Below are positions 14,831 through 59,164 of a stretch of 64,000 nt of DNA, piece after piece. Origin of the DNA: Pseudisothecium myosuroides (taxonomy: Eukaryota; Streptophyta; Bryopsida; Hypnales; Lembophyllaceae). The notes beneath the pieces were generated by a model. It was not told where the DNA came from. It made no database searches and was given only the letters and a program-made list of their open reading frames with translations. Numbering within the stretch: position 1 is the stretch's first letter; the number at the start of each line of letters is the position of its first letter. The translations under genes were made by a program, and so were the position numbers. Location of the stretch: the NCBI GenBank assembly GCA_951799445.1, contig OX637293.1, positions 13,764,001-13,828,000 on the forward strand, given 5' to 3'.

Positions 14831-15090
14831 GGCTATTTTTGGCGATCTCTGGCTTCTGCACTCTCGCGAAGCGCTGCGTAGTCCTGCGTAGTTCTGCGTA
14901 GTCCTGAGTACCGCATCGAACTCCTGGGAACACATTAACTGCTTCGTGTGAACGTCCCGTTAAGGTAGTTGAGCTGCCCGGCTGCCATCGGAAACTCCGC
15001 GCCGCCGTTCTCTCTGGACTTCGCGTTGCGTCCAGACAGTTGTTCGTCGCACCTCATGCCGATCGCGCTCCTCGTCGAAGTCCGTTGCCC
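14831..15090. other. GC-rich leader, probable left margin of the composite
   Basis: Composition shifts to GC-rich here. A short motif, GCGTAGTCCTGCGTAG, is repeated at 14875-14910, and similar GTAGTCC/GTAC words recur at the other margin near 59100. They could be subterminal repeats of the older large element, upstream of its transposase start. Confidence 0.35.
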
Positions 15091-18000
15091 ATGCAACGTC
15101 GTGGTCAGCCGCCGTCGCGGCCTGGACCTGCCACGAGGCGAGCGACCGAGATGGCGGAGGCGGAAGAGCGCCGGCGGCGTTGGAGGGAGAAACAACAGCG
15201 CTTCAGGGCCAGGCTTAGGGAGAGGCGTGAGACAGGATTTGAGGACGGAACGCGCGCGGAGGAGGACGACAGCGGCCGTTCTGAGAGTACCTTACGGAGG
15301 AGGGCAGCGGAATTCTCGAGGGACCTTATTTGGCACTTGGAGAGGCTCGGGGACGAAGAGATCAGGGCGGCAGTTCTTGATATTGTCTTCAAAAACGAGA
15401 CTGTACGCATGCTCATGCCAGACTATTACCCTTCTCCGGAGGATGCGCGAGCGCAGCGAGACATTTTGCACAACATTCGTCTCGACTTACAGGCCATGAA
15501 GATTCCGCATTGCAGCGGAATGTTGGCACGGAAGCGGTCGATACTCGAAGCCGTCGTCTCGGACTTGGAGATCGATTCAAGTCGGTTCCCTCGGATTCTG
15601 GGCACTCGGAGGCAAAATGTCGTTTCTGCTGCGCGGAGGCTGTCTGACGCAGCAGCAACGGAGACATCGTCACGTTTCAAAGTGCCTGGTCGAAAGAAAC
15701 GTGACGGTGGCATTCCTGAGGAAGTGCGGGAACTGGTGATCGGGTGGTGGACGAACGAGACTAGGATCTCCCCGGATCGCAAACAAGTTAAAAAAAAAAG
15801 GCTTGGACGACGGCTGTACGACAGGCACGCAGCTCATCTTCTCCTTGAAAGTCAGGCATTACTTTCTGGCCCTACCTGTCCTGAATTTGTTTGTCATGAC
15901 GTTATTTCCTCCTGCGCTGATTTCCTCACTGATTACCATGATGTCACATTCCGTAGTTGTCCATAAATCAGGACGCAGGACATTCACAAACAAACCCATG
16001 CTTCGTTTTCGCGTTCGGGTTTCACATTTAGGACTCAAGTTTTGGCGCAGCAGGTCCACTGCACGCCGGAGGGTCAATGTATTGCCGATCTCTGTCGTTG
16101 CATGTAATGCAATTGTACTCCCAATCTGTCTACCTACTGCGTCTTGCGATTTAGGCCCCTATACGGAAGTTTCTGTCTTATTTCCACGGTGAGGCCCAGC
16201 ACCCTAAACCATTGACGGAGCAAGATGACTCCTGCCGACGCTGCATTGGACCACAATACCGTCCGCAATCCTGGATTGCACTTGGACACTGTCCTGGAAG
16301 CTGGGTCCAAGACCACCTTCGGCCACAACATAGTAGTGGTGTTGTGCTCTGTGACTGTGTGTGGCCCGTTCGTTGCGACGTCTTCCTCGGTGGGTTTGCT
16401 GTACCTCCATGCTGAGGAAAACATCCGTCGGGATGTGACTCCTACTAGTACTGACGCCGCGACCGCCACTGGTGCTTGACGGATTCAGCAGAATTTTGAC
16501 GCGCTTCTTCGGCGTTGCACTCAGCGACTTACTTTGGTATTAGGGTGGCAAAGGACTCACAGGAACAGTCCTGTGCAGCACTTTCTGATGCGCACGTCAT
16601 ACTCCTTGTACCCCGACGCCTGTATAGGACTGATCCGCGTCCCGGATGCTGTCCTCGTGGTCCTCGGCAGCACTCAGCGTACCGTCGTAGGAGTGCGCAC
16701 ATGTGACGGTTAGCGGCGGACGACGTCGACGAGTACTGAAACATGCAGCCATGGGGCGGGTGTAGCATTACGCATGATCCTCAGGTGGTGCGAACTTTCG
16801 GCCACAGCACTCCATGTCCGCTGCCACTGCGTTACCGCTAGTACTTGGAGTCCTTCAAGTGTGCAGTAGTACTCTGCGGGCGTCCTCCATACGACTTCTA
16901 GCACTCCGTATCTGCAGTGCGTGTCCTTCTAGCGACATCCAGGAGTGGTGACCGGCGGGTAGAGGACTCTTCCGCCTCGGTGTTCACCGTCCTACCGCTA
17001 TTACTGCAAGTCCTTCAAGGCCCGTAGTACCCTGCGGGCGTCCTGGATAGCGCTTCCAGTACTTCATTTTTGCAGTGCCGGTCCTTCCAGCGCCGTCCGC
17101 AAGTGCTGACAGCGACTGATGGTATTCCTGTGCAGGTGGACATGTACAAGCGTTTTGTAGAAGCTAATCCGCGCTGCCCTATTATGTTGCGGTCCTTCAT
17201 CAAGTTACGGCCTTTCTTCGTCATCAAGTGCAAGGAACGCAACGTTTGCTGCTGCAGGTACCACATTCAGGTGCTTTTCCTCCTCGAGGCTCTGAATGCT
17301 TTCCGGGACCCAAGAAACGGGGCGCACACTTTATTCCGTTGCATCTGCCATTGCGTAGTTTGTGGTTCCAACATGGAGGGCATCTGCCACGTCGGTGAAA
17401 GCCAATTCTCCGGTGTCACCTCGATGTGGATGTCCATCCTCTGCGACAAAGCGGAGCATTCCGAATTCCACAATCTCAGGTACGATTTCAGACCATTTCT
17501 GCGTTGCTAACACGGCGATCACAATGCTCTGTTGTAGAATTCGGAAACCCAGTCCCCACAATCTGATAGCTGCGGACCATCCGTGCCAGTGACCTGTCTT
17601 CCTCTTTATTGATGTGCACGTCGTGGCTTTGTACGTGTCGTCCTCCTGTGACTGTAGGAGTTGTCGTCTTGCTGCAGCGCCAGTCCCGCAGTTCCGGGTC
17701 AAGCGACCTTGTTGACACCTGACGTGAAGTTCTCTTTCTCTGCGCAGCTGTTTGACAGGAGCTTGCAACGCGTGTGGAGTGCACAAGTTCCCGCTCTGCC
17801 CGGAGGAAAGAATTGAAGGACCCGAAAGGACTATAAAGTGGAAGAAATTCCAGTACGAAACGGACCCCCTGTCGGCTGATGGGAACGCCCGTAAACGCAT
17901 CACCGAGGTCACCTTGACTACTTTGTTTTCAGCTTTCATGGACTTCTTTAAGCCCACGCTGGAGCGGTTTGTCTACCACAACTTCTGTGCACGGTGGCAG

Positions 18001-18375
18001 AGCGAGCAAGCTAAGCTAGCGAAGGAGTCTTTGCCTAGAACTGCCGTCCTGACCCACATCGATTTCGCAGAGAATTACACCTTCCAGGTGCAGAACGAAA
18101 TCCAGTCCATGTATTACCATTCCACGCAGATAACTATTATGGTGCAAGTTGTGTATCGCGTGCAGGAGGATGAAGATGCAAATGACGGCAATCCAGAACT
18201 CGTTCGAGAAACTCATTACTGGATATCCGATGACAGGGCCCACGACACACTTTTTGTGCAGCATTGCTTGCTCCGTCATTGGCAGTGGCTGCAGTCGCAC
18301 GGTTGCTGCCCAGACACCCACATCGTCTTCAGCGACGAATGCTCCGCACAATTCAAAGGTGCACGCTCCCTGGGT
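15091..18375 (+). pseudogene. DDE-type transposase, 5' two-thirds (copy A)
   Basis: Exons 15091-15855, 17136-17479 and 17748 to about 18365 join in phase and align throughout with the intact transposase at 20870-24160: basic N-terminus, the segment LLLESQ at the first exon end, KERNVCCCRYH, the Cys-rich GACNACGVHK region, and the first catalytic motif THIDFAENYTF. It breaks off in the second motif, SDECSAQFKGAR, where a related element begins. Intron 1 has a GC donor (CAG then GCATTA) and is 1.28 kb long. The N-terminal ATG at 15091 gives a length close to the intact copy. The 3' third, with the catalytic glutamate, is absent here but a complementary fragment lies at 44161-45358. It cannot be functional as it stands. 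Confidence 0.85.
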
Positions 18376-18382
18376 GATCGCA

Positions 18383-18595
18383 CGCTACGGTCGCCCCCCT
18401 GGCCCGATATACAAACATTTACGCACAGTACAAACTGTACGATATTTGGTACGCCTCGTATTCCGGCGGGTTTTCCGGTACTCTGACAAAGGACCCGTGA
18501 ACTCGGGCAACGGACCCGTGAACTCAAGCGCTTCAGGTAGTCGCCTGAATGCTTCGATGCTTTTTGAGTTTACAGTTTTTTTGTGAAGGTTTACA
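18383..18595 (+). repeat. Element 5' leader, copy 1
   Basis: About 210 bases from CGCCCCCCTGGCCCGATATA to the start codon match 20662-20869 with few changes. The segment starts where the copy A transposase is interrupted, so it marks the 5' end of the inserted element family. No inverted partner was found. Confidence 0.7.
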
Positions 18596-18906
18596 ATGGC
18601 GAATAGAAGACTTGGAGAGCGACGTGCCGGATTCAAGGGGAAGGGACCTCGTGGGAGGGCGGAGGATTACAATGAGGTGAGGGAGGATTTGAAAGACGGG
18701 GAAGCAGAGAGGCAACGTCGACGTCGTTAGTTGGTGAGGGAGAGAGAAGCAGCAGCTCGTTTGCTTTTCGTGCAGGACGAGGAATTGGAGGTAGGAAGGG
18801 AGATTTCTCCACAAGAGCAATTGTTTTGTTTGTCCAAAATTGTGGATTTCTTCATTTCAAAGATGCAAGGTTGTCCGGAGGCATCTTCTAGGCTGAAGAT
18901 TATAGG
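18596..18906 (+). pseudogene. Transposase N-terminal fragment (copy B')
   Basis: It starts MANRRLGERRAGFK like the intact copy, carries an in-frame TAG at 18728-18730, and aligns up to SSRLKI, after which the sequence switches to the non-coding DNA that precedes a B3 gene. It looks like an internal deletion derivative that keeps the 5' end and the 3' B3 region of the element and has lost the catalytic body. Confidence 0.85.
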
Positions 18907-19636: not shown

Positions 19637-20236
19637 ATGGATGCGCAGCCGGATGGAGTCGTGGCGCCTGCCCACGCGTTTGAGAGAACAGCGCCGTGTG
19701 CAGGGGATGCTTTTCATAAGACCTTGAAGAAGGCGTCCCTCCGAATCATGGTAACTGCATCTGCAATTTCATTACTGTTTCGAAGATTGTGTCTCTCAAT
19801 GTAACAGGAATTGCTGGGTTTTAGGTGGGGTTTTTTTGGTTTCAAAGGGGCACATCTCTTATTCTTTTTAATTTGGTCACAGAGGGTGCCCGCATGGTTC
19901 TTCCGGAAGTTTCGAGATGATTTTGAAGGAGAGGCTTACGAAGGAACTGTTAGACTTCGGTACATAGGGAAACTTTACTCTTTGTTTGTCAATGTGAAAA
20001 TATCGTACACCAAGAAGCGACGGATACAAGTCATGCTTACTCAAGGATGGAGATATTACTGTTGTTTCCATCGCATAGTTGTTGGCGACCGGGTCACATT
20101 TAGGCGCTTGGGTGCGGCCGAATTTGAAGTTACTGTTCACAGAAGTTCCATTGGCAGACAAGTTGGATTTCCGGTGGGTGGTGATACAGCCATTGAATCT
20201 GGGGAACCATCGTCTCCCTCTTTGAACCTAGCATAG
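19637..20236 (+). CDS. Small B3-domain DNA-binding protein
   Basis: Exons 19637-19750 and 19883-20236 join in phase to 155 aa. Residues from about 30 to 135 fit the plant B3 fold pattern: a KTLKKASL lead, VPAWFFRKFRDDF, a GTVRLR strand, a QGWRYYCCFHRIVVGDRVTFRR segment (the usual GW...F....L..GD...F), and FEVTVHRS. B3 domains are plant sequence-specific DNA-binding modules, so a nuclear role is expected. It lacks the extra domains of ARF, ABI3/VP1 or RAV proteins and is just the B3 domain with short tails. It lies downstream of a transposase fragment, as the second copy lies downstream of the intact transposase, so it belongs to the element. A perfect GTAAGT donor at 20357, beyond the stop, suggests a further transcript exon. 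Confidence 0.75.
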
Positions 20237-20356
20237 AAGCCACAAAGCATATGTTCACCAATACATAAATGGGGACAATAGATAGTACTTTGGGGGCAAC
20301 TACTGCACAAAATTTTGCTATGCACAGTCTGGAAACTATGCAAAACTATACTTTTT

Positions 20357-20661: not shown

Positions 20662-20869
20662 ACGCTCGCCCCCTTGGCCCGATATACAAACATTTACGCA
20701 CAGTACAAACTCTATAACATTTGGTACGCTCCGTATTCCGGCGGGTTTTTCGGTACTCTGACAAAGGACCCGTGAACTCGGGCAACGGATCCTTGAACTC
20801 GAGCGCTTCAGGTAGTCGCCTGAATGCTTCAATGCTTTTTGAATTACAGTTTTCTTCTGAAGGTTTACA
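20662..20869 (+). repeat. Element 5' leader, copy 2
   Basis: This is the direct repeat of 18383-18595, lying immediately upstream of the intact transposase start codon. It presumably contains its promoter and 5' leader. The two leaders are 2.28 kb apart. Confidence 0.7.
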
Positions 20870-23800
20870 ATGGCGAATAGAAGACTTGGAGAGCGACGTG
20901 CCGGATTCAAGAGGAAGGGACCTCGTGGAAGGTCGGAGGATCACAATGCAGTGAGGGAGGGTCTAAGAGACGGGGAAGCAGAGAGGCAACGTAAACGTAG
21001 ACAGTTGTTGAGGGAGAGAGAAGAAGCATCGAGGTTACTTGCTATGCAGGATGAATTGGAGGTTGGAAGGGAGATGTCTTCACGACAGCTTGCGGAGGTT
21101 TCGTCCAAAATTGTGGATTTTTTCACAATGAAGATGCAAGGTTGTCCGGAGGCATCTTCTAGGCTAAAAATTATGGAGCGTTTTTTGGAGGACGAACGTA
21201 TTTCTCCATTTCTTCCTGAGTATTATCCTCGTGGGCAGGATGCCAAGGCTCAATTCGAATTCTTAAAAAATTATCAGTTGGAGTTGGACGCTGTGAAGGG
21301 TGTTCAATCGGCAGATATGCTCGCTAGGAAGGCTGTTCTCCTAGATACGGCTATATCTACTCGGGTTACAAACACCAAAGCTTTGTCACGGGTTTTGAAT
21401 GTTCACCCATCCAATTTGAGGGTGGCAATAACCTGTCGAAGTAGTGTACGATTGCAAGCTTCACCTTTTGCACTCGTAAGACGTAGAAAGAGGCCAGGAC
21501 TGCCTGGCAAGATTAAGGACCTCGTTACGAAGTGGTGGACAGAAGAGACCCGTGTAAGTCCCAACAGGAAGGAAATTGTACAGAAATGGATTAGTCCAAA
21601 TACGTACGACAAGCATTGCACTCACTATTTGCTCGAAAGTCAGGTACGAATCGATTTCATTGCAGTGTCGCAGCACCCTGTACAAATGTTGCATTGTCAA
21701 ATATACAATCCTATACATCGTTTCCATCCGACATGTACGCTATGCACCTTGTTGTATCTCCCTCAGTTCTCTGATGGTCTGAATGTGTACCCTGCAATAC
21801 GTTGATTACAATATTACAAGGTACACGCTGTATTAAAAACTATACATTATGTACAAAGAGGTACCGTGGGTCTCATGGTCGAGTATTCAGAAAGTCTTTG
21901 TAGTCGGGTGGTCTGCTTTGTTGGAGGCTTTTACTTGACGTATTATTCTGGGCATTACGGTCCAAGGTATGTTTTGTACGGGCTTTGTACTTTTGATTAC
22001 CTCTTTTGTATTACCTCTTTTGATTTCTCAAGAAAATTTGCATTCTTGTAGGCCGCATTCCACCAGCAATTTAAGGTGGCACACCCAGACGTGGCAATCA
22101 AACAGAGAGCCTTTGAGAAACTGAAGCCTTACTTTGTTAGAGCGTGCAATGAGAGGAACGTTTGCTGTTGTAGATACCACGTGGAGATCGACATGCTCAG
22201 GGAGGGGTTCAATCGGATTCGGGATGGCACAAAGGGAATCCACTTCTTAGAGAATTGCCAGTGCGTGTGTGATGTGTGCCTCTTTCGACTGGAAGAAGAA
22301 GCAAAGTGTAAAGCGCATCTGAAGACATATGCAGGTACAACAGCGCTGTGGCAACAGATCGTTTGCCCTAAGCCTGAGAACGAAGAGTGGCATGCTCTGC
22401 AATGTGTCATGGGTACGTGCGGAGACTGTGGTATTTCAAAGCTTCCGATTTGCCCTCTTGAGTTATCATCGTCTTCAAATGTCACCTGGAAGTGTTTTGA
22501 GAATGAAATCATTGGGGTGACACGGGATGGGAAGCCCCGGAAGAGGATTGTCGAGGTATACAAAGAGACCTCTCCACAAGTGTTCTTTGAATACTTCAAG
22601 TCTAAACTGCCCCAGTTTGTGAAGCACAACTTCATTGCGAGGTGGCAGGACGACCACTGCAAGCGTTCTATGCAGAGTTTGGGCAAAGATGTGATTTTGT
22701 CACATATTGATTTTGCTGAGAACTACACTTTTGAGATTCAAAATCAGATCCAGAGCATGTATTGGTGCTCCACACAGATCAGTATCCTTGTCCACATCAC
22801 GTATTGCTTTAAACCAGACGGAGTTATGGTGAAGGAATCCCATTTCTACATAACTGATGATGAAAAGCACGATTCCCTTTTTGTACAGCATTGCTTGATG
22901 CAACACTGGCAATGGCTAGAGTCTCAAGGTATGCTTCACATTGCCCTAAGTTTTGTATTTACCATATCTCTTTCTCATTCGCGCTCTATGCCTATTTCTT
23001 ATATAAGAGTTAATTGTGGGTGGCATGGAACTCTCCGACTATGATGCGTGTGTACCGTAAAATGTACTTTATGTACCGATTTTGTACAGCACTTGTAAAT
23101 GTTACGGAGTGTATTGACTTTTGTACGTGCGTCGACAGGGATTCGACCGAAGCACCACGTCGTGTGGTCCGACGGCTGTGCGGGGCAGTTCAAGGGTGCT
23201 CGACCATTTTATTTTGTGGCCAGATATCCCGGCCTGACAAATGGTTGCACTATGAACTGGAATTTTTTCGGAACAGGTCACGGGAAGGGAGAGTGGGATG
23301 GAGCTGGTGCTGTTGTCAAGCGTGCTCTAAGGCAGTCCCAGTTACACAACACGTGGAGGAGGATGCAAAACGCCCACGATGCAGTGGCGTTTTTGAATGA
23401 GACCATGGGAGGGACTGTGGATACAAACTTTGAGAAGACCGGCATCAAAGAGGTTCAGAGATACTTCTGGGAAATACCGAAGGACATCACAAGGGAGCGC
23501 AGTTACCATTGCGAGACTGTTCCAGGCTCCCAGGCCTTGCATTCAATTTACTCTTTTGCTGTTGCGGACCCAACGCAACTTTTTGTGCGCAAATTATCGT
23601 GCTTCTGTGTTTATTGCCTTGACGGCAATTTCGTCAACTGCGTTAACAAGTCCCATGTTGAGAACTGGGATTTGGTAAAGTTGAAGCCATACGATCTCCA
23701 ACTAGTTGCTGACCACATGACGGACCACGACGTTGCAGATGACGAGGATTGGGAGGAGGTCGTGGAAGGCAAGGGATTTGGCGATCTCATCCGGCCAGGT

Positions 23801-24160
23801 GACAACTTCGTTGTCCCTGCTGTAGAAGGCAACAACGAGGGAGTGGAGTTCTATATTTTACAGTGCACCAGGGGGAAGTATGAGGTTGATCGCGGGTTCA
23901 AATGTGCTTGGGGTCCGGAGTTTGAAGCTGGCGACTTCATCATACGGGGAACTTACTATCAAAAGTGGAATAATGGGTACGTTCATCTAGGCAACTCCCA
24001 ACCAGCCCATATTGATGCACACCTTGTGGTGTATGGAAAATTTGCTATGATTCCAAAGCCAGGTAGGCGGAAAGGTGGGGAGGTTACTTATGACATAAGT
24101 GACGACAACCTTGCTACTATTAGGGTTGGCTTACATCGGTTTAGGGAGGAAAAAGACTAG
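20870..24160 (+). CDS. DDE/RNase-H-like transposase, intact (copy B)
   Basis: Exons 20870-21643, 22052-22928 and 23139-24160 join in phase to 890 aa without a stop. Order: an Arg-rich N-terminus (1-60); a helical region with WWTEETRVSPN near 221; a Cys cluster (CCC at about 293-295, CQCVCDVC near 328, CGDCG near 380) likely to bind zinc; then the catalytic-type motifs SHIDFAENY (D478), WSDGCAGQFKGA (D562) and GHGKGEWDG (E602), a D-x83-D-x39-E spacing. A C-terminal segment (about 765-857: DLIRPGDNF, CAWGPEF, GDFIIRGTYYQKW) looks beta-rich, perhaps a BAH- or Tudor-like chromatin module. The motif set matches an uncharacterised eukaryotic family known to me mainly from invertebrates and oomycetes; the transposase role is inferred from the acidic triad and from multiple copies here. 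Two other copies in the window are broken. The stop is 13 bases before a GTAAGTAC donor. Confidence 0.85.
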
Positions 24161-24173
24161 TGACTTTACTTTT

Positions 24174-25305: not shown

Positions 25306-25996
25306 ATGGAGCACTGGGAATTTCTTGGACTTCCGCTCGAAGGAGCAATGGCATCGGCAGCGGTTGATGGAGGAGGGCCTCCAAATGGAGCAGTGTCGGC
25401 GCGAGCATTCGGTGGAGGAGCGTCGGTGGTCCCCGCAGTCGCTGGAGGAGTGCCGCAGCAATCTGGAGCAGTGGCGCGGGCAATCGTTGGAGGAGCAGCG
25501 CCATCCGGGGCAATTCGAGCCGAAGATGTCTTCCACAAAACGCTGAAGAAGGCGTCGCTCCTCCGCATGGTAACTTTAATTTCTTTTCTAATTCAATTAG
25601 AAATGTTGGTTTTGCTTTTAGTTTTAGTTTTTTTATTTAAAAGGGGTGTATGTCTTATTCTATCATATTTGGTCTCAGAGGGTGCCCGTCCAGTTCTTCC
25701 GGAGGTTTAGAGAAGATTTCGATGGAGAGGCTAACCAAGGATTTGTTAGACTTCGGAGCATAGGGTAACTTTACACTTTGCTTGTCAAAGTGAAAATATC
25801 AAGCACCAGGAAGGGACGGCCACAAGTGATGCTTAGTAGAGGATGGAAATTTTATTGTGAATTCCATCAATTAGTGGTAGGTGACCGGGTAACATTCAGG
25901 CGCTTGGAGATGGGTGTTTTTGATGTTACTGTTCAGAGAAATTCTAACATAATTGGGCCATTTCCGGTGTGTGACGATGAGATAGGCAGTGAATAG
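25306..25996 (+). pseudogene. B3-domain gene, second copy, broken
   Basis: Exons 25306-25569 and 25679-25996 match the first B3 gene: KTLKKASLLRM at the exon 1 end, VPVQFFRRFREDF, then SRGWKFYCEFHQLVVGDRVTF and FDVTVQRNS. The N-terminus is longer, with a Gly/Ala-rich expansion (AVDGGGPPNGAVSARAF and following). One nonsense change, TAA at 25766-25768 where copy 1 has AAA, stops the frame in the middle of the B3 domain, and the rest stays open to 25996. The single lesion suggests recent loss, or a sequencing difference. Confidence 0.8.
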
Positions 25997-32373: not shown

Positions 32374-32552
32374 ATTTCAAAAATGCAATTATCCTTGCAT
32401 TCAATAGAATATATACAAACTCTGTACACAAAATACATTTTACCACTATGCCTCTGCATTCCAAACAGAGCACATTCACAAATTTTTACACATGATGCAA
32501 ATTTGACACGTATTTGTTAAAAAATGTAATATCTAGCAAATATGACCTAAAT

Positions 32553-39469: not shown

Positions 39470-39509
<40 letters not shown>

Positions 39510-42466: not shown

Positions 42467-42539
42467 CGTCTTCAACGACTACCAAAAAAAGGTCAAAAAA
42501 AGTCGTTGTAAACAAATATGTCCGCAAACTCGTAAAAAA

Positions 42540-43380: not shown

Positions 43381-44160
43381 TATGCTGTACAATGAGTACG
43401 CACAGTACGCTCTATGTACGATGGGCGAAACGTAGAGGCTGTCACGGGGTTCAAGCAAAAAATCTCCGATACAGAAAATTGGAACCAAAACATCATTTAC
43501 ACCAAAATGAAATGTTGGCCCATATAAATGAAAAGATCTTCTCATAGATTCTGAAATTTAAAATGAAAAAAACACATTTTAAAGTCAAAATTTGGGCCTC
43601 GTACCGAAATCACACATTTGTAAGGATATTTTCTTATTCTCTTTTCCAAATCCTAATGAAATGCCAAAACATTGTACCTAAACATTAGAACATTGAATGT
43701 AGCTCTTTGCATTGCAAGAATGAACCCCTAAACTTGACACAATAAGTACAACAATGCTAAAGCTGAATCTGTGACAGTACAAACATTTTATGTTTGTACT
43801 CTTTATATTGAATTAATAGATGAAAGTCACTTTTTGTTAAGCAATTTTCAATGTACCCGAGATGTAAGACTTTGCCTTATTTTTTTTTTCTCAAAAAAAC
43901 GACCATAACTATAGTAAAATTGACCCTAAACTTTCATCCTGTGCAGAAATTCTGCCGTGACTACGATTTTGGACAACCGTAGTGTGCTTTCACCCCCCTG
44001 TATTTTGTTGCTAGGTACATGTCATTCTTCCACTGCCATGCACTCCACGCTTCTGGTCACACTCTTCTGACATCATGTACCACGTATAGAGGAGAGAGGG
44101 AGTGCAAAAGTAGCCTCCTTGCCAACATAAGTCGATGGCATCCTAGTAACGCCTGAATTT
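43381..44160. other. Non-coding DNA, right margin of the TGTAC-rich element
   Basis: No gene is present. TGTAC words fade after about 43870 and composition becomes more GC-rich; the right end of the inserted element should lie between about 43870 and 44235, but no inverted copy of the left leader was found. Confidence 0.4.
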
Positions 44161-45358
44161 GTGACAGTATCTCTCACTGCACAACACGTCGCCCTTCGCC
44201 ACCTGTGCGCTGACAAAGTGCATTGTGGGTTCCGTTTGTCGGCCAGATACCCGTCTCTAATGGGAGGTTGCAAAATGGTATGGAATTTCTTTGGCTCCGG
44301 GCACGGCAAGGGCGAGTGGGATGGTGCCGGCGCAGTTGTGAAGAGGGCGCTCCGGTCTGAGTAGCTGCTCAATCCAAACCGACCACTGCGAGACGCACGC
44401 GAGTGTGTCACGTTCCTCAACGCCACTATGGCTGGGCAGGTTCCGCTCCGCGGTGGACGCATGAGGTGAGGCCCAGCACCACCGCGCTCTGACCGCCTGA
44501 AGCGGTTTAGGCCACCAGTCGTCACCTTCTTGGCGGAGTCCTGGAATCATGAACCATGTCCACAAATTCAGCAGTCTAGGTTTCGGCGTAGATCCTATTT
44601 TGTAATTTCATATACTCTTGCGGTCTTTTTCATGCAGGTCATTCCAGTATTTTCATCTTGTTGGAGTTGAGGAGGTGGACCGCGCTTGTTCACATGCCTG
44701 TCGGAAGATTGCGGGATCCTCCAAATTGCATTCGGTCTTCGCTCCAGACTCCAGAGACCCCACGAAGATTTTAATGCGAACATTGTCTTGCATGTGTGGA
44801 CCGTGTTTGGAGGAAGACTTTGGCCACTGTGAGCAGCAGGCGTACGTCAAAACGTGGAAGGTACACAAAATCGAGCCACTCAACGTCAATTACGCATAGG
44901 AAGTACTCGAAGCCGGCGATCCGGAAGATGAGGAGAACTGGGAGTATGAGCGGGACGAAGATCGCATGGCAGACCTAGTGCGGCCGGGAGATAATTTTGC
45001 TATACCTGCCGAAGCAGACAACGACGAAGGCGTCTCTTATTACGTTTTGCAGTGCCAGAAGGAGAAGCATTGCGTGGAGGAGGACTTCGAGTGCCCTTGG
45101 GGTGGAAAATTCAAGCGAGGAGACTTCATCATTACTGGAACTTACTACCAAAAGTGGGGCAGGGCGACATCACAGAACTACGTGTACTTGAAGGACTCCA
45201 GGCCCGCCCATATTGATGCTGACATAGTCCTAGCTTGTAAATTCCAAATGCTCCCGAGAGCACATAGAGTGAAAGGAGGGGATCCTGTATACTCCCTTCC
45301 ACTTGAGAGTGTTGATGTAATTGCACGTGCATTGGAGGAATACCAGGATTGCCATTGA
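44161..45358 (+). pseudogene. DDE-type transposase, 3' third (copy C)
   Basis: Alignment to the intact transposase begins firmly at ARYPSLMGGCKMVWNFFG (about 44240) and includes the third catalytic motif GHGKGEWDGAGAVVKRAL. It then has an in-frame TAG (about 44362), a remnant CVTFLNATMAG, a gap at 44480-44630, and resumes with FQYFHLVGVEEV, LSCMCGPC and the C-terminal domain (DLVRPGDNFAIPAE, GDFIITGTYYQKWG). A second TAG lies after VNYA near 44897. The end matches the natural end of the intact protein. The stretch before ARYP is weakly similar to the QHCLLRH segment of other copies; this could be a decayed overlap or chance. Composition matches copy A rather than copy B. Confidence 0.85.
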
Positions 45359-45919: not shown

Positions 45920-48900
45920 TTACACAGACACTGCAGGCAAGGCAATCTTTGCCCTGCACAAAACACTACCACATGCACATTGAAAGGGTTCCATGTCGTT
46001 TCCGCTTTCTAAGACAGCTGTGCAACTTCCGTAGCGAGTGAACTCCACGCCATAATCCCAGGTGAGCTCTTCTCCGGCCGCAATGTCTCTGTTAGCGAAA
46101 AAAGCAACCTGCATTGACGTCGTAGTGAGAAACGTCAAAAACGTAGCGTCAAAATGAAAACTGACGTACAATCACAATTCTAAGATCGGTAGTCAGTGCA
46201 GCGGTAGACTCACGTGGTAAAGCGTTGGCAGACAAGTGCCCATCCACACAGGCATCTCCATGACATTTGCATCCCCGCACCTGCAAAAGAAGGGGAGGTC
46301 AGGTCACAATGCACTAGTCCGGCGTTAAACTGCACATCCACTTCAGAATGCACGTGAGCACGTCTTACCTATGATTCATCCACCGCGTCACGTTCGTGCA
46401 CTCCGCGGCATCTATACATAACAACTCCTTATCGCTTTTGAAGGACTCCGACTGCCAGTGCGCATCCAGGAGAATGCAGAAAGTTGAACCACTTTCCCGT
46501 CGGAACAACTCAGCATTCGTCAAAACCTCTCCTGCATATTCGAACAAAAAGGTGCCTTGTGGGCAGGCTTCGAGCGTTCGGATGCCCCATCCTTTCTCAT
46601 TGCTCACCCAGAACACCTGCATTGGACAACAGCATGAGGACCTCCATGGCAGCGGGAATGTGGACATTGACCGTTGACAGTGACGGGTAATAAAAAAACC
46701 CGCGAAATACCTCGAAAGGCTTCGTCACTCCTTCCTGGACGACTCTATTGCCACAGTCTCAAGCGCACCCGCATGCTTTTGAACACTCCAGTATGTACTT
46801 CCGCTCCACATGACCTGCACAGGCTTCCTTCCAATACCCCTTGCACAGGAATTCTCCACGGCAGTGGACTAAGTGCTCGTATCCTCCGTCCCTGCGCTTC
46901 AAATACTGCACGACCAACACACAAACGGGCATGACACAGCAATATGTGGACTGCGCACATACAGGGAAACATCGCGGAAGAAGGAACGTCTGAAAACGGG
47001 TAGTGCGCCATTCAAAACATTAAGAGAATAGGATGCAAGGCGAGGCGGAGGCAACGTCTATTACCTCTTTCACGTGTTCGAGACGCAGCAACCCCTCGGC
47101 TGTATACGCGCAGCCTCCAGATACGCCACCGCACTAGCAACGAGTGTTCTCCTGGGTGCAAAACCCCCTGCATGTGCACCCAAGGTCTGTGTCCACACAT
47201 GACTTGATTAAATCCCGAGGCAACGAGTGGTGCAACAGTGGATTCCGTATGTACTGGTACGATGACGTGTCCCAGTATGGGGCTTCACCTACGCCACCAT
47301 GTCTAGTGCAACGCACCGGCACGGACTCGTTACCACGGGAGCAGTCGAAGAGGACGCATTCCTGTGACGATAATGGCAGAAAACACAGCAATAGACTTAC
47401 ACTTGTGCTCATTGCAAATGCTCTCTCGGGCCATTCTCCAAGACAATATGCGTAGTTAGTAACAGTATAGTGACACAGACACAAGAATGAAGAAAACAAT
47501 TCTGCAGTACATAAGGAGGGAAGTGCGCACGAAGTGAGCACCATTTTACATAAGCACTAAAGAACGAGAAATACACCCCTGTCCAACGTTGGCGGGGGAA
47601 AATAGCACACTGCGAACGACAAGAAGTTGCACTTCTACCGTGTGTGGGAGGACTACGTCCGCACTCATCATAGACTGAGGGCCCCTGAAGCAAGCGGATA
47701 CTTGAACGATTGCCCTTGCGATTTAGGACGGCCGTGCTCCAAATCTCTTCGGGGGCAATCGTCGTGAGCAGCAGGAACGAAGACTGAGGGACCCTGAAGC
47801 AAGCGGATACTTGAACGACCGCACCTGCGATCAGGGCGGCCGTGCTCCAAATCTCTTTGGGGGCGATCCTCAAGCGCAGCAGCAATGCACTGCACTTGGA
47901 ATAAGGGCTCAGAGATATCATCCCTTCTTCTGTACCTTTGTCTTTCTCGGTGGTACAAAAGCCTCGGTCCTCTCTGCAGACGACTTTGGTGCTTGCTTTG
48001 AGGATCTCAGGTGCCTTGTTCCTGCGCCCGGTGGACAGTCCTGCTTCAACGGGGAACGACCCCTACCGCCCTTACTTGTGACCTGCGAGGTGTCGTTCTT
48101 CTCAGCAAAACCTGGTGCCCTGTCTTCGTCGGCCGCGCTCCTCTTAGCAGCCGCGGTGACAGAAATCGAAGCAGCGTTCTTCTTGTCTGCCACAGCGGAA
48201 AAGGGTAAAAGAGCGCAGTCAGTAACAATACATGCAAACTCCCGAAGCCAAACGGAGGCGAACCAAAGAATTGGCCAATGCTGCGGTGCTGTAGTGGTAC
48301 CTGAGACTGCACTCCTGCTCCTGTACACGACGGGGCTAACGACCTGCCGTGGTGCATCCGGCGAGACGCACCCCGCTCCCTGGGATGCCTTTGCTTCCTC
48401 TTCCTCAAAGAATTCCGTGTAAGGGTCAGTCGCACATGCAACAACCTTAGCAGCCTTGGCAGAAACGGGACACTGACTCTGTGATGGGGTTGCAAGTTTC
48501 GCAGGCAAAGTGCCACACACCTTATAGAGCCCCAAGCATACAATAACGCAACCCCATCAGCAGTGATAATGTCAGTGTCTGCAATTGAAGACTGCTAAAA
48601 ACACTCTTGGCAAGGAATAGACACCCACGTGCGCAGAGTCCTCCACCGGCAATGCGTCCAGGACGGATTGCTCCTCTGCAGTCAACAGCGCCTCCGCCTG
48701 AACAGCGCCTGTGACCGTACCGGACTCCTCTAGTTGGGACTTCTTCTCGTCCGCTAGACTCCGCTGGGTGTCTCGGCCCGCAGTTTTTTGCACTGCCTCC
48801 ACCGCGTGACCGTCGTCCGGTACCCTCGCATTGCTGGGAGTCTTCGACTGAGTGGACATAGGCGTCATGGAATTCCTACGCCCGGGGAATTCTTCCGTCA

Positions 48901-49036: not shown

Positions 49037-49479
49037 ACGGAGTCAGAAGAAAGACGAGAAGGAGCGCAGGACAAAGCGGTCAAAGCATGACATGTTTACT
49101 TGAAGCCAATCCACAACTTGAGAGTGCCCTACAGGCACTGACGTGTTCTTTGGGCACGTACCAGCCCTTGCAATTGCAGAGCAGCGCTTCCAGCAAAGAG
49201 GATTGGCAGTGCACATTGACTCAAGACATAAAGCCACTTGTAAAAGGCCGTTCGTGGACTGATGAAATGGTTACTCCGGCACGTCTATGAGTGCTGTCTA
49301 CTATACATGACGTAATTGACCTACATATGCTATCGTGAACACCTACAGCACTCCTTCCATCATGAAGGAGTCGCCAGTAAAAACGGAAGTGAAGGATTGC
49401 AGTAAGAGGACAGGTACACAGCAAGAAGGCACTTTGAAAATCAGCCCTCCATGGCGAGAAAGAGGCGACCGTCACTTAC
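49037..49479. other. Spacer between SET2 and the third RING-like gene
   Basis: It may contain terminal exons of the RING-like pseudogene, which has a GTAAGT donor at its 3' end (49472-49479), but none could be fixed. Confidence 0.35.
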
Positions 49480-49694
49480 TTGGGCCTTCGTCGGTGATTG
49501 GCGCAGGAGGCGTGCAGAGGGAGTCTGTATTCAGTCCTTCCACAACCGCAGGAACATGATCGCGGGTTGCAACGCTACGGTCCTCCTCTACCGTTGCAGA
49601 GAAGCCAAACACTTTCAGCCACATTGGATGAACCCGCCCGCAGCCCGGTGATGCACAGTCGGAGTGGTCCCTGAACCATGCCGCAGCACACCAA

Positions 49695-50027
49695 CACTAT
49701 AACAAAACTTGGTAAAAAAAAACCGTGCAGAGATTCGACTACGGTTTTTTTATCCACGCTTTTGTGCGCGTGCCCGTAGTGGACAAATAGTGTTTTTTGC
49801 AATTTCCCACTGCAATTTTTGGAATTTGGAAGCATGTAATATACCCTTGGAAAGGTCTTAAAAATACCTTTCCAATGGTATATTACATGCTTCCAAATTC
49901 CAAAAATTGCAGTGGGAAACTACAAAAAATACTATTTGTCCACTACGCGCACGCGCACAAAAGCGTGGATAAAAAACCCGTAGTCGAATCTCTGCGCGGT
50001 TTTTTTTTACCAAGTTTTGTTATAGTG
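49695..50027. mobile_element. CACTA-type foldback MITE
   Basis: The 333-base element is almost entirely one inverted repeat. Its ends are CACTATAACAAAACTTGG and the reverse complement, with a 3-base target duplication CAA (49692-49694 and 50028-50030). Terminal CACTA and a 3-base duplication define the CACTA/EnSpm superfamily. The arms are about 155 bases with a short centre, so a transcript could form a long hairpin. Confidence 0.9.
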
Positions 50028-51820
50028 CAAGGATGGTAAAGGTGCTTGCAACTGCAGATCAGGGTATGCCAGAAAGGAAAGCGTTCTAAGCACAGAGCAT
50101 AAAGTGCAGGAGCTGCCATGACTGCAAAGTCGGTCTCCTCATCCATGTTCACATGACTGAGAGGGAGCGGATTCGGGTGCATCAAGCACGCAATGTCACC
50201 GGACTGCAAGGAGGTCTGCTCTAACTGCAGCGCGTCCAGGTAACGGCGGCCGCCCTCCAACCTCAGTGAGACTTCCTGCTGCCTATCCTGGATGACGCGC
50301 CGTTTTGCCTGCTGAGCGTTCAGCTCGGTCAAGCTGTTTCGGAGCATATCGTGCAGGGGTGTTTCACCGAGAACCTGCAGCACCACCTCCTGGCAGCTGT
50401 CACCCCCAGGCAGTTCGTATTTTTCTCCGTACTTGGCGAATTGCTTGATGATGTGCTCCACCATTCCAGATTGGAATTCACAGTCCCTCTTGCAGTCCTC
50501 AGCCTGCTGCTCCACTACCGCCAGGTCCAGTCCCAAACTGCCGACCTTGTCTTCTAGTTGGAAGACTGCAACGTCCATGTCCACATTCCTGCATCACACG
50601 CAACGGCAGTAAGGAGATGACGAGCATGGACACAAGCCTCACCAGAATGCCGGTATTGAAGGTTCCGGGATGGCAACATGTTTTGGTAGCGGCAGATGCA
50701 AAGGCCGACCGGCGGAAAAATTACCTGGCAGCGAGCATGTCGAAATCAAGGGCCGGAGCGAGGGACCGTCCGACACCGGGCTTTGTATCCTCATTCAGCA
50801 TTGGGATGGAGTGCGGCTTCTTGAAGTCCTGCGGCGACAGTGGGTTCCATTGTCGGCTGTCCGTGTCCTTAAGGAACTCCTTCAGATCCTGTTGTATGTC
50901 GATTTCTGTGCCTAACACCGCCTTCAGCCGCTTGAGCCAAGTTCTGGCTCTGATCACGTAATTTGCGTGCTGCAGCTGGTTAGTCTCCGCTGCAAATTCA
51001 GCCCAGTCCACCTGCTCTTTTCTCGCACTTTGGAAAACCCACCCAATAGCCAACTCCTTGGCGACGTGGTTGGGCGCGAATTCTTTTTGGTAGGAGATGC
51101 AGTACAGTCGTTCCACTTCCCTCCGGTCCTCCAAAGACAGTTTGTCACCTAAACTGTACCCGTTCCTACCCCGCTCAGGCCCGAAGACTGCCTCCACTTC
51201 TTCCGGCGGGATGTGTTTGCCGATTTTGAGCTTGTGCGGATTACGTCCGACGTTGTTCAGGCTGAATTTGCTGCAAAAGTCTTCCTTCGTCCTGCACTTC
51301 GGCGACAGTTTGGGGGCGGTCTTCAGGTCTTCAAGGGCCTTCCTGCATTCCGGCTCCGAGAAGACCATCTTCTGTCCCTTCTTGTCCTTCCTCGCTCTCT
51401 GCACAGAATCACAGCAATATTAGAACGCAGATTGAAGCCAGTCACAGAGCGGGGCGACAGCAACGAAGTGGAAGACAAAGTAATTTACCTTTCGCCCTGA
51501 AAGCTTCTCCTCGGAATCGACACTGTCGCCTTCCTCTTCAGTGTGGTATGTGGAGTCGCGGTCGTCATCCTTCCTCGGCTTCTTCCCCTTCAACTGTTGC
51601 ATACGTCCGGCCACTGGGGACTTCGCAGCGGCCTTGGTGCCTTCGGCGGTCCCTCTGCATTTGTCGCCAACGGGCGTCACATTGCGCGCCTGAGTCCCCC
51701 CCTTCCTCTTTCTCGGCTTCGCCGCGGGAGCTTGTCTGGGAACGGAGCCTGTGGCCTCGAAGTCTGAGCCCTCGACGCCGTGCTCGGCTTCCTCCACAGA
51801 AGTCGACCTGCCGGTACTCT

Positions 51821-54800
51821 CACTACAAGAAAATGGGGGTAAATGTGACTGCGAAAAATGACTGTGACGCGACTTCCAGCAGTCATTTTTGCAAAATGTG
51901 ACTGGTTCATGACTGCGACTGCTGTAGTCGTCAGAATGTCATATGTTTTGATCTAAAATCTACGTTTTTTGAAGTAATGAAGAAAACTATTATCACCATC
52001 TTTTTCTTTCTTTTTCTTTCTGGGTAGGAGATGGATGATAAACTCTGAGGTGGAAAGTGCTTCAATAGACCATATGACGTGGACAGCCATGTGTCCAGTC
52101 GTTTGGCAGTCACTTTTGAGTTGCGTTGGACCCATGATAAATCTGACGTGGATGGCCACGTGGCTAATCATTAGCCAATCATTTATTAGTTGCGTCAGAC
52201 CCCTAATAAATCTGACGTGGATTGCGACGTCAAGGTGAGGGTCACAGTCATTTCAAAGTTGCAATGCAGTTGTGCGAGAGTCATTTATAAGTCACCACAA
52301 AGTTACCAAGGCGTTGTATATAGTGATGTTAGAAGTCATTTGTTAGTTGTTTTCCAGTTACTACAATGTATGCAGAAAGGAATGTGGGGCCTTTTGACTG
52401 AGGAGAAGTTGTTTTGAAGTTGTTGTGCAGTACATTTTGAATTGTGCTCTAATCATTTAAATTGACTGAGTCAAGTAGGAGTTGTCATTTAGTTGGTTGT
52501 TAGTAGTGCAGCTATTGTGTGTGATACAGCGATTTCCATACAAGTAGTGAAACATGCAGTGCAATTGGAATACAAGACTTTCAAACATAAATCTTTGACT
52601 TCTAAATGCACTCCTACAACACTTTCACATTGCATGCTAGATAGACACTGGCCACTAACAACTGAGCTTGGATATCATGCAATCCATTCAACTTAAGAAT
52701 AGTGATGTCAAAATGGAATTTTTGCATTTCCAAAAGGAAGAGCAATCCATAGGCTCTCATCACTTACAACAATATTGTATGCAATTCCACTTGCACTATA
52801 GAATGAACTACTTCCTCTTGCCTATCCATTTGCAGGAAGCCAAAGGCTGCATCAAGTCATAAATTTTGTATACCTGAGAGTCCAGAACTTGCGTTGACAT
52901 GGTAGTTTGTTAATGCTCTCCAAAACCAGTTTTTGCTTCACAGATCAAGGATTCACAAGGAAGACTTTGTTGCTGACGTTGATCTGCAATAGGCAACACA
53001 TTAGCTTTTGCAATCTTCTATGAAGTACTTACAAAATTGCAAATTATTAAACTCTCTACTGGTTCTCTACTTTTTCGTGACTAGTGCGTAACTAGTACGT
53101 GACTAGTGCGTAACTAGTACGTGACTAGTGCGTGACTTGTACTTGACTTCACGGCGACTTCTTACCTGGACCAAATGCAAGCTCACTACCTTGTAATTTG
53201 AAAACGACATTCTAAGCTTCAATACATCACTGAGGATTAAAAAAATCCCCAATTCAGCAGCATTTAGGTACCTGATGACACAATTGAAAAACAATACCAC
53301 ATTATAGCAGGAAGAGCATTAGAAGACTTCGTTAGATCTTGATCCAAAGAAGAACTACATGAGTGCAAAAAAGGCCACACTTTTAGCAATAACAAATTCA
53401 AAAAATTACAACTCCAAATGCTAAAGAACTCCCCTTCCAAAGTATAAGTCTCGCTAATAATCTTACACCAAGAAAGAATGACTACAACATAGAGAAAGAG
53501 TGACTACAAGAGCTAGGAGAGGTTTGCAAAGTTTTAGTCATCCGTTCCACAAAGCCATAGAGAATAGTAGCTCCCCTGCAAGGCTACCCCACAATAAAAA
53601 ATGACTACAACTCAAGACATCAAACCCTAAGCAAAAACTAGTTTAGGGTGTCCTCATTGATTCTACAGCAAAACCCTAAGGCGCAAATATAGCATAGGAA
53701 TTGATCGTACCTTCTTCGGAGAAGTCACAGTTGGTCTCCATCTCCTTCAAATCTGACCCCTCCTCTTCCAACCGTTGACACACTTCATTTGACAGCGGAG
53801 TTGTCTTGGGCCTTGCCGGCGCATTATTCTACCAAAGAACTTACAACCCTAGATTTCAATTGTATGCTTCCACAGCAAGATATGGGGCTTGCCACGGGAG
53901 TCCCTAGCTAGACAACTTGATCTTTCTACCAAAAATACTCCACTCTACAGCAAGAGGCAAGAAGGAAAGAAACTATCTAAGTTTGAAATCAAAAAGACAC
54001 TACAAACTGCAAGGGAGGGGTCAAGCAATACGAAACATCCGCAAAAACAAAGGTAGCTCGACACAATGATAGACAAGAGTACAAGAGCAGACCCTTCAAA
54101 TCGGGAGAGACGAAATCTAGGCCTCTAAAAACCTAAGATCGGCGCTGGTAGGTTCTGTGGCCGCCACGTTGCACCGCAGCCGTTGCATTTATTGTGCTAT
54201 AAATGAACTAGTCGATGACGTGTCAAAGAGTGACTGCTTCACAACTTGACCAGTGACTGCTCTGGAACTTAGAAGTGACTACTAACCAACTAATAAATGA
54301 CTTACGTACAACTTTGAGAACGTCTTTGTGTCCAACATGAACAACATTGTATACAAAAGTTGATCACCCTCAATTTGCTACCAAATTCCTTTCATGTAGT
54401 TTTCACAAAGTGCTCAAAGATCTTTGGAGGAACAAGAGTAGCACTTACAAGTCAATGCGGTCCTCTTGGATGGGCTTCAATCTCTCTGTCAATTCCGCAA
54501 CTTGTCTATCTTATACAAGCTCATGTTCACATTTTTTTCCTTTTAAAAGGCTTGAATCCATTCTTTGATTTCTTATAATTAGGTCCATTTTGATTTGTTG
54601 TGTGGCAAATTGCAGGTAGTGAGGTATGTTTATAGGACACAATGAATGACAAAATATTGGCAAATTTGAAGCAAGGAAAGGAAGTTCCTCAAGTTGTAGG
54701 GAAGCCATACGTTATGTCCGTTGCGTTACGAGATACAACACATAAATATGTGCTCATGAACACGGCCATTATGGAAGATTTCTATGTGTGAGAGCTTCTT

Positions 54801-57629: not shown

Positions 57630-58097
57630 TTACAGAAGTGGTTTGAACATTTCAGACAGAGAAAATGTCTTCCGCTGGGACGCGCACCGGTCAACTGTAC
57701 CGAGGACTACCTCTTCGTCTACGCAGTCTACTTCGGATCGAGCTGCTGTCCTGCCGCATTCCTCTAGAATGCCTTTGCTTTCAAGCAGCAATTCGTGAAC
57801 CCTATCTTTGTAACTAACCCGGGGCTTCTCAGAGACTGGCTCAGACGCGGACTCCTGCACCGAGACACCGGCAAATGTGCGGAGCGCCTCTGCCAAAGCT
57901 CTGCGTCCGTGCTCCGAAACGGTTGGGGTGGCAAAACCGTCGTGGAGCCTGGGTCTCCCACGGGCTTCCGTGGATGTGTCGTTTCCTCGGTGGGACTGGC
58001 CACCGGAGTCCCCTTCGTTCTCGGAGTCCGAGGTTCTCGCTCTACGTCTTTTCCTCCTAAAAAACGGAGCAGCTCGGAGTCGTCCCTCATCCGGCAT
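57630..58097 (-). CDS. Unknown basic/acidic protein of the older element
   Basis: An open frame of 155 codons starts at a good ATG (58097) with MPDEGRLRAAPFFRRKRRRA, a basic cluster, then Ser/Glu-rich and polar stretches, and a helical HELLLESKGILEECG. No family is recognised. A GGTACAG donor near 57698 suggests that the last 20 or so codons may be intronic and that the frame may splice to a downstream exon, possibly the RING3 gene that follows on the same strand 1 kb away. It could be its 5' exon or a separate gene. Confidence 0.4.
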   Translation of the reverse strand: MPDEGRLRAAPFFRRKRRRARTSDSENEGDSGGQSHRGNDTSTEARGRPRLHDGFATPTVSEHGRRALAEALRTFAGVSVQESASEPVSEKPRVSYKDRVHELLLESKGILEECGRTAARSEVDCVDEEVVLGTVDRCASQRKTFSLSEMFKPLL

Positions 58098-59164
58098 TGC
58101 TGCAGGAGCTTGCGGTCTATCCTACATACGCAGTAATCTGTGAAATCCAGTGAAGTAATCTGTTCGCATTTGTGAACGGCAAAGAGGAACTCGCAGTCCA
58201 GAAAATGTACCCTAACCCCTACCGGAAGAAACTGCGGACTGACGCCGTGGAGAGGACGCCGGCAATCATGGGACGCTCTATAAATCGGTGTTGTCGCGTC
58301 CTTTCAACCCAAAGCTAAAACCCTAAACCCTAAAGTCGGAAGAGCCTCACAAACAGAATTGCCCATGCGGAGGGAGTGAGCTCGCTCAGTAGCTTTCGAC
58401 ATTTCTCTACCTAAGCCTAAAAGCTTAGAGCGGCGGTCGACCAAAGCTAAACCAAAAGAGTCTCCCGAAGCCGACTACAGCAAGTTCGAAAAAATCTAGG
58501 AGGGGAAGCACAGTGGACAGGAGGACGTGACGGGACTTGGACAAACCTGAAACGCTATGGAAACCACTCCAAGTCCGCCCGCAATCTGTCGCTCGCTGCT
58601 AAAATCGCGGCTTCCTTCCTCGCGGCTTCTCTCCTCGCAACCACGGGGTCCTCCTACGCCTTCGCGAAGTCCCTGGCAGTGCACGCGCGGAAGACTCCTC
58701 TCGCAAGCAGCCCACACTACCGTGCGGCCTTCACCTCTTCCTCGCCACAGCGCCGACGTCGTCCTCCTCCTTTCGACGGCACACATTCCACGCCGACAAC
58801 ACTTCCTTTACAATTCCGGCATCCGCGCACAGAGAATCGGAAGCTGCACTCAGACTGCTGTGGACCCAGAGAATCGACCCAGAGTTGGCAGCGGACGAAG
58901 ACGACAACAAGAAGCCCACGGAAAACCATCCTCCGTTCCCTAAATCTGTTCATCCGAATGGATGAAGTTTCTGATGTGAGGCGTTGAACGACCCAGTTCA
59001 ATGCGGCGACTTCAATGCGCTGCAGCCCTGCCCAGCCAGCTGTCGAGAGCGCAGGCAATCTTAAACTCCAAACCGACGGTCAGGATTCTCCGCGTCCACT
59101 GTCGCACAGTACTCGTAGGACCCGTAGTACTGCCAGTCCTATGGCCTGAAAACGCGTTTTTGAC
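58098..59164. other. GC-rich DNA to the probable right margin of the composite
   Basis: A telo-box doublet (AACCCTAAACCCTAAAG) lies at 58319-58335. An open frame on the + strand (58557-58943) is rich in Ser, Pro and Arg and lacks recognisable features. GTAC and GTAGTACTG words at 59105-59140 resemble those at 14875-14915 in inverted arrangement. Confidence 0.4.

Follow-up and report, generated by a model that had tools for sequence, protein, structure and literature searches.

Nested cut-and-paste DNA transposons of one plant family carry SET and RING-like genes that form a candidate chromatin module

Why should a SET-domain histone methyltransferase gene lie twice beside a transposase gene, in the same order, on one stretch of moss DNA? 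The 64,000-nucleotide window analysed here (G000:C7:13764001-13828000) comes from the genome of Pseudisothecium myosuroides, which comprises 388 Mb in 222 contigs. A sequence-only reading of the window had proposed that two diverged gene sets share one order and orientation as the traces of a mobile unit. Both sets are present, each with its transposase on the plus strand and its SET and RING-like genes on the minus strand, and their membership is as proposed: the outer transposase (A/C) goes with SET2 and RING3, and transposase B with SET1 and RING1 (Table 1). In our reading the window very probably holds two large plant cut-and-paste DNA transposons of one family, one nested within the other, with a candidate SET/RING chromatin module that may counter silencing. 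It is next to certain that the several genes move as one unit and that SET belongs to its core.

The inner element (B lineage) is multi-gene, apparently intact, and sits within the transposase gene of an older relative, the outer element (A lineage). Its 19-bp terminal inverted repeats (TIRs) match at 16 of 19 positions, and a 4-bp target-site duplication (TSD) flanks them. Excising the element together with one CCCT restores the outer transposase frame ..FKGARSLYFVAR.., and a relative at C9:25.22 Mb (L034) carries the same site uninterrupted with a single CCCT; L035 has a near-identical version of this site. A second copy of the inner element at C10:1266239-1306424, with TSD TTCG, is 97-99% identical over the compared stretches and contains a second transposase cluster. 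Transposase A stops at the equivalent of residue 572 of the inner transposase, tpB, and transposase C picks up just beyond. A, B and C had been listed as three transposases; B is a separate gene, but A and C belong to a single gene, its 5' and 3' parts, between which the inner element has inserted, so the window has two transposase genes rather than three, plus a truncated 5' copy (18387-18904). The outer set is broken, as had been claimed, but the agents are the insertion of its own relative, stop codons and a fold-back insert in RING3 (two 165-nt arms, 95% complementary) rather than other transposons at large. The inner element's gene list also grows, to two RING-like and two B3-type genes. 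The outer element ends in the TIRs GGGTAATTGCAAGAAACAC (14305-14323) and GGGCAGTTGCAAGAAACAC (59178-59196, minus strand), with flanks TTTT and TTCT that match at 3 of 4 positions; allowing up to 3 mismatches, the A-type TIR pattern has 3 matches in the window against 0.28 expected.

Copies elsewhere bear out the mobile unit: they share exact ends with 4-bp TSDs. Three A-lineage elements could be aligned end to end (C10:517832-531875, C1:11933332-11949889 and C2:15455284-15469335; 14.0, 16.6 and 14.1 kb). Their TIRs are GGGTAATTGCAAGAATGAC / GGGTGGTTGCAAGAATGAC, with GGGTGCTT.. at the right end of the C2 element, and match at 17 of 19 positions in the C10 and C1 elements. They are flanked by ACAT/ACAT (C10), AGTA/AATA (C1) and AGAA/AGAA (C2); a fourth A element (C1:43332717-43346909) has the TSD TATA, and three short elements have TTAA, AATT and AATA. 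Across ten terminal pairs examined, the TSD is perfect in 8 and has one mismatch in the other 2; a copy at 14.5 Mb on C11, whose right end lies beyond the stretch fetched, was excluded from this count. The family termini read 5'-GGGT...ACCC-3'. Genome-wide, the A-type TIR has 1827 matches (reversed control, 2) and the B-type TIR 76 (control, 3). B-type TIRs form 17 facing pairs within 45 kb, 10 of which, the window's own included, contain a transposase; all 10 have at least one RING-like and at least one B3 match, and a SET was detected in 7. Twelve facing pairs of A-type TIRs about 740 bp apart among the matches listed (e.g. C1:6309860-6310600) and five 600-642-bp elements with B-type TIRs are short non-autonomous derivatives. 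Transposase clusters occur on all 11 large contigs.

Table 1. Features of the two nested transposons, in window positions.
Feature	Position	Strand	Remarks
Outer (older, A-lineage) transposon	14305-59196	+	44,892 bp with the inner element inside it
Outer transposase, 5' part (transposase A), degraded	14908-18371	+	tblastn with tpB, 32-48% identity in pieces
Inner (B-lineage) transposon	18372-43995	+	25,624 bp; TIRs, 4-bp TSD CCCT, uninterrupted relative site, second copy
Left TIR of inner element, GGGTGATCGCACGCTACGG	18372-18390	+	TSD CCCT precedes (18368-18371)
Duplicated upstream region and truncated transposase N-terminus	18387-18904	+	copy of ~20662-21174; repeats, tblastn 75% over 103 aa
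B3-type gene 1	19637-20236 (approximate, two exons, bounds by eye)	+	PF02362 32.4 bits, cut-off 30.1; genome copies
Inner transposase tpB	20870-24161	+	exons 20870-21643, 22052-22928, 23139-24161; open, 890 aa
B3-type gene 2	25316-25996 (approximate, by eye)	+	63% to B3-type gene 1 at C7:13789676-13789978
Small open reading frame, ~135 aa	28394-28801	+	no Pfam match above cut-off
SET1, SUVR-class	29837-32376	-	exons 30855-31151 (Pre-SET), 30240-30673 (SET), 29837-30110 (SET end, post-SET)
SET1 presumed N-terminal exons	~31241-31525, 31489-32376	-	latter with 45-bp peptide repeat
RING1	33757-35697	-	647-codon open frame; acidic N-terminus, conserved domain, coiled coil, RING-like
106-bp tandem repeat array, noncoding	37367-38554		eleven copies, between RING1 and RING2
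RING2, second RING-like gene	40087-42478	-	main frame 40874-42478; PF13639 24.9 bits, cut-off 27.3; genome copies
Right TIR of inner element, GGGTGAAAGCACACTACGG	43977-43995	-	TSD CCCT follows (43996-43999)
Outer transposase, 3' part (transposase C)	43996-45358	+	frame resumes after insertion; intron ~44015-44246; stops
SET2, outer element, degraded	45920-47019	-	exon break at NHR|C as in SET1
RING3, outer element	49475-51938	-	broken by fold-back insert 49695-50027

To place these genes genome-wide, we searched all contigs with transposase, SET1, RING1, RING2 and B3 queries. Since the searches scored the best candidates (for the transposase, the best 51 of 581), each cluster count is a minimum; there were 153 transposase, 63 SET and 83 RING places, or 152 transposase clusters where the window's A and B transposases are merged. 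The sequence-only reading had staked its proposal on linkage of the transposase to SET and RING-like genes elsewhere, and this is what we find. Within 15 kb of a transposase lie 45 of the 63 SET clusters (43 downstream on the opposite strand, 2 otherwise) and 37 of the 83 RING clusters (33 and 4), against a mean of 2.0 (maximum 8; 500 trials) and 3.9 (maximum 13), respectively, for random placement on the same contigs. With linkage so far above random placement, the association is not due to chance. The order transposase-SET-RING holds in 34 of 34 transposase clusters that have both partners within 40 kb downstream on the opposite strand, some of which have a partner set in common (C2:36.14 and 36.17 Mb; C11:11.999 and 12.004 Mb). 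Strong B3 matches, about 14 for each of two kinds, lie beside B-lineage transposases only. Two further, weak matches (33% identity; E 6.9e-5 and 7.8e-4) are positioned between transposase and SET in D-lineage elements at C4:34.15 and C11:6.91 Mb, and comparing the genome B3 search with the transposase places gave no match near A-lineage transposases elsewhere. At C6:19.9 Mb a transposase lineage is accompanied by a RING-like gene, with no SET found in the 9 kb read; for the lineage at C6:29.6 Mb, neither was found in the 9 kb read.

Copies are spread unevenly: C11, the smallest large contig (16.9 Mb, 4% of sequence), holds 43 of 153 transposase, 21 of 63 SET and 43 of 83 RING clusters, and may be a sex chromosome or another low-recombination region. 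Separately, transposases at C6:29637873, C10:371333, C105:391437 and C49:401506 have near-equal scores (197.3-197.4 bits) in a lineage in which no SET or RING was found, which suggests recent movement.

Have the SET and RING-like genes travelled with the transposase for long? Quick trees of 22 SETs and 29 transposase cores, in which some forks stay open, each place lineages A, B and D on one side of a branch (support 93, 97 and 99 for SET; 99, 99 and 100 for transposase); eight transposases without a detected SET group apart with support 94. Across 19 elements, the distances between SETs are correlated with those between transposases (r = 0.91), and none of 2000 permutations was as high (maximum 0.35). 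The lineages are 46-50% identical to each other in SET and in transposase. Between the A elements on C2 and C10, the ratio of nonsynonymous to synonymous substitution rates (dN/dS) is 0.16-0.17 for the transposase, 0.27 for the SET exon (10 changes) and 0.29-0.40 for RING. Comparing B with the copy at C2:36 Mb gives 0.20-0.22 (transposase), 0.35 (SET exon), 0.71 (Pre-SET) and 0.99 (post-SET), and A elements C2 and C1, one of the close pairs that show no constraint on the accessory genes, give 0.35-0.39 (transposase), 0.65 (SET) and 0.85 and 1.41 (RING). The co-divergence with the transposase makes the SET and RING-like genes look less like casual cargo than like core accessory genes, its lasting companions. 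The claim that SET, RING-like and B3 genes are carried as cargo thus stands as to the recurrence of SET and RING; their role is better described as core accessory, and B3 is strong in the B lineage only.

The inner transposase, tpB, has no Pfam match at E<=1, and none of 39 transposase homologues has a Pfam match to a transposase family; one shows a weak MURB-like match (PF05928, E 0.13, 12.4 of 20.8 bits). An AlphaFold2 model of a transposase homologue has an integrase-like core, a likeness that rests on VIA-align 2, and Foldseek with the transposase model returned weak matches only (NurA, best E 9.5e-04). tpB carries acidic residues D478, D562 and D604, and the enzyme counts as an RNase H-like DDE/D transposase. 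No match came from a degenerate DNA motif designed for the transposase.

The spliced SET1 protein matches Pfam SET at 70 bits; its Pre-SET exon alone scores 28.5 bits against a cut-off of 29.1, and for the spliced protein the listing has no Pre-SET. All three parts, Pre-SET, SET and post-SET, are recognisable, with the catalytic NH and Y, and one Pre-SET cysteine is replaced by Y. The best matches in the PDB are H3K9 methyltransferases. The closest annotated relative of the transposon SET is SUVR4 of Linum (39% identity over 92%); the transposon SETs and SUVR4 have the NHRCxDANL signature in common and form a clade at SH-aLRT 98 (Shimodaira-Hasegawa-like approximate likelihood ratio test). By sequence, then, the SET is of the SUVR4 class. 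Among 20 transposon SET copies fetched, 19 retain the catalytic NH and 18 the DY. We found no match to the ubiquitin-binding WIYLD domain in two presumed N-terminal frames of SET1. This presumed N-terminus contains a 45-bp in-frame repeat (window 31641-32222) encoding an array of EHPSGEGMVEATAV-like peptides.

Both RING-like proteins of the inner element fall under their Pfam RING cut-offs (RING1 13.2 of 27.4 bits, RING2 24.9 of 27.3), and a C-x2-C..C-x-H-x2-H-x2-C pattern is visible in the RING-like proteins. A second RING2 frame, 40087-40884, is possibly a further exon. The RING1 model is poor (mean predicted local distance difference test score, pLDDT, 59.2), and a fold search with this low-confidence model gave no match at E <= 0.001, with mostly p85 coiled coils listed. 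Five homologues were found among 7995 candidates scored in the RING1 search. A viral or prokaryotic source was looked for without success: pattern matches arose in viral (21) and genome (153) contig sets, none of them confirmed as relatives.

What could such proteins recognise on element DNA? We counted hexamers with coding intervals masked by hand and tandem arrays masked in noncoding B, using second-order simulation for expectation. The top over-represented hexamers have a GTAC core and differ between the elements: TTGTAC/TGTACA in B and AGTACT in A. TGTACA occurs 43 times in noncoding B (13.5 kb; 20.4±4.2 simulated) and 4 times in coding B (4.3); AGTACT occurs 32 times in noncoding A (7.6 kb; 7.2±2.0) and once in coding A (1.9). 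The remaining 26.2 kb of the window, which include 6.7 kb of the outer A element, hold 6 TGTACA (7.9 simulated) and an excess of AGTACT (17; 6.8±2.6). AGTACT is likewise the top hexamer of the outer element, of L034 and L036, of the A elements on C10 and C1 and of the D element L026, and ranks second in L038. A palindrome, GGTTCACCCAAGTGAACC, is seen in copies spaced about 60 bp at positions 5400-7880 of L052 (C6:19896001-19905000), which belongs to the RING-bearing transposase lineage without detected SET.

How, then, might the SET gene serve its carrier? Judging from sequence, the SET protein probably acts on element chromatin, and what we see may be a mobile element managing its own chromatin. 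We infer that the SET and RING-like proteins would form an element-encoded chromatin module that targets the element's copies in trans. The GTAC-core palindromes in noncoding DNA would be recognised by a DNA-binding partner, be it the conserved N-terminal domain of the RING-like protein, the B3 protein or the N-terminus of the transposase, and the SUVR4-like enzyme would set H3K9 methylation at palindrome-rich element DNA. Host silencing would thereby be countered and the transposase gene kept expressible, for instance if H3K9 were shifted to a state that does not sustain the H3K9me2/DNA-methylation loop. A more elaborate version, in which the accessory protein of each lineage would recognise the short palindrome peculiar to it and recruit the element's SUVR-type methyltransferase to copies of that element, so that element, motif and enzyme would co-evolve as a self/other chromatin code opposing silencing, is tentative and rather unlikely. 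In Arabidopsis, according to the available text of PMC7218100, SUVR4 deposits H3K9me2/me3 and its ubiquitin-binding domain affects the product, which makes a RING-like neighbour suggestive, though no WIYLD is seen here. The title of PMC13017857 calls H3K9me3 permissive in plants.

Several observations weigh against this reading. By analogy with SUVR4, H3K9me2/me3 deposition may repress rather than protect. The D element L027 is led by another hexamer, TCATGA, and the A lineage has AGTACT arrays without detected B3. In these lower-bound searches, no transposase was found within 40 kb of 14 of 63 SET and 28 of 83 RING clusters, and neither SET nor RING within that distance of 85 of 152 transposase clusters. 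Part of the detected SETs are probably host genes; we infer this for two unlinked SETs with long open frames at C7:21.3 and C8:1.4 Mb. RING1 of the window compared with the C10 copy has a dN/dS of 1.77 (19 nonsynonymous to 3 synonymous changes), the B SET exons compared with C11:9.8 Mb show 34 nonsynonymous to 3 synonymous changes in all, and in such close sequence pairs selection on SET or RING is not clearly visible. In the tree, flowering-plant SUVR4 sits among the transposon SETs, so that SET may have been captured more than once.

Among the possible net effects we favour anti-silencing, which we hold at somewhat under an even chance. Self-restraint, in which a SUVR-like enzyme lays repressive H3K9 methylation on element copies and so limits copy number and host damage, is doubtful. 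It would fit the H3K9me2/me3 deposition by SUVR4 and the title of a reference cited in the available part of PMC7218100, which puts this deposition on transposon chromatin. The lineage-specific motif arrays, however, resemble those of a system known to counter silencing rather than to repress. Selection also rarely maintains self-harm in selfish elements. The module might instead mark or read chromatin so as to direct where copies insert, H3K9-methylated relatives being one conceivable target; this would explain the nesting of the inner element within an older relative and the second transposase cluster in the C10 copy, but these are two cases only, nesting is expected in repeat-rich regions anyway, and we regard such targeting as quite unlikely.

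It is very unlikely that the element merely carries captured host SET, RING-like and B3 genes without benefit. Gene capture is common in plant transposons, and recent copies lack clear constraint on SET and RING; against this, block, order and orientation are the same in three lineages only ~46-50% identical, the genes co-diverge with the transposase, catalytic motifs are kept in 18-19 of 20 copies, and dN/dS in the C2/C10 pair stays at 0.16-0.40 across transposase, SET exon and RING. That a host cluster was duplicated locally as a segment, without transposition, as the tandem duplication inside the inner element (18387-18904 copies ~20662-21174) might suggest, has practically no chance: the TSDs and the uninterrupted target site rule it out, and precise TIRs and transposase clusters on all 11 large contigs speak against it as well.

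The surroundings of the two transposons hold further features. An extra left-type terminal repeat (3 mismatches) lies at 59492-59510, just past the outer element, with its partner absent from the window. About 6 kb past the window begins an element of the D lineage (C7:13834080-13841811), which has a transposase, a SET and a RING-like gene, so lineages A, B and D all lie within ~64 kb. At the other end, 329-3902 is a cluster of direct and inverted repeats with 29% G+C, perhaps a further transposon, and 5383-5904 is an exon of a LUC7-type splicing factor (PF03194, 48.5 bits), probably of a host gene.

Plant transposons are normally targets of H3K9 methylation. An element that owns a SUVR methyltransferase together with motif arrays makes control of transposon H3K9 methylation testable within one genome, where young and old element copies lie side by side, and opens a test of the direction in which SUVR genes have moved, from host to transposon or the reverse. 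The sequence-only reading knew of no plant DNA transposon with a separate H3K9 methyltransferase, a RING-like protein and a B3 protein as its cargo, and no plant DNA transposon with a histone methyltransferase is named in the titles or abstract openings listed by searches of licensed PMC full text aimed at such elements; precedents do exist in oomycetes. HarbingerS and MuDR families of Phytophthora have incorporated SET methyltransferase genes (available text of PMC12730594, citing Kojima and Jurka, Repbase Reports 2014). Their hosts are oomycetes, of another kingdom than plants. The same text mentions no RING-like or B3 genes or motif arrays for them, and gives the canonical Harbinger TSD as 3 bp, while noting that some relatives differ; ours is 4 bp. 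In Pfam our family matches neither a Harbinger nor a Mutator-like element (MULE) transposase, although very distant kinship with Harbinger is possible.

The VANDAL MULEs of Arabidopsis resemble our elements as multi-gene plant DNA transposons with a lineage-specific short motif dense in noncoding DNA; there, as far as the accessible text of PMC5735166 goes, the motifs are bound by the elements' own VANC proteins, with anti-silencing as the effect. Tandem peptide arrays in an accessory protein are a further likeness (here in the presumed SET1 N-terminus). Unlike VANDAL, our elements have no MULE transposase match, and their motif is a mostly dispersed GTAC-core palindrome whose binding is putative; no SET domain is mentioned for VANC in that text. 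Fungal TET/JBP DNA transposons, as described in the part of PMC12730594 available, are alike in that several superfamilies carry an epigenetic enzyme with a proposed role in silencing escape, but theirs is a DNA dioxygenase with other transposases, whereas ours is a histone methyltransferase.

Plant SUVR4 methyltransferases differ from ours, which is transposon-borne, bears repeats in its N-terminus and has no WIYLD match in its presumed N-terminal exons. SETMAR of primates likewise joins SET and transposase, and its structure 3bo5 is among the PDB matches of SET1. It is, however, a single fused host protein, whereas here two separate genes lie on opposite strands of a mobile element. Lanisha, reportedly proposed by authors working on mosses, is the last comparison. 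Like our family, Lanisha/CMCT is cut-and-paste with short TSDs in the accessible text of PMC12730594, but the C(2)C + H(3-4)H that it has between the second D and the last acid was not found between tpB D562 and D604 (if D604 is the third acid), and its termini are mostly 5'-CA..TG-3' where ours are 5'-GGGT..ACCC-3'. A DNA transposon with a chromatin enzyme is thus already known, SET-bearing ones in oomycetes included; new here are the host group, the transposase, the SUVR class, the RING-like and B3 partners and the motif arrays.

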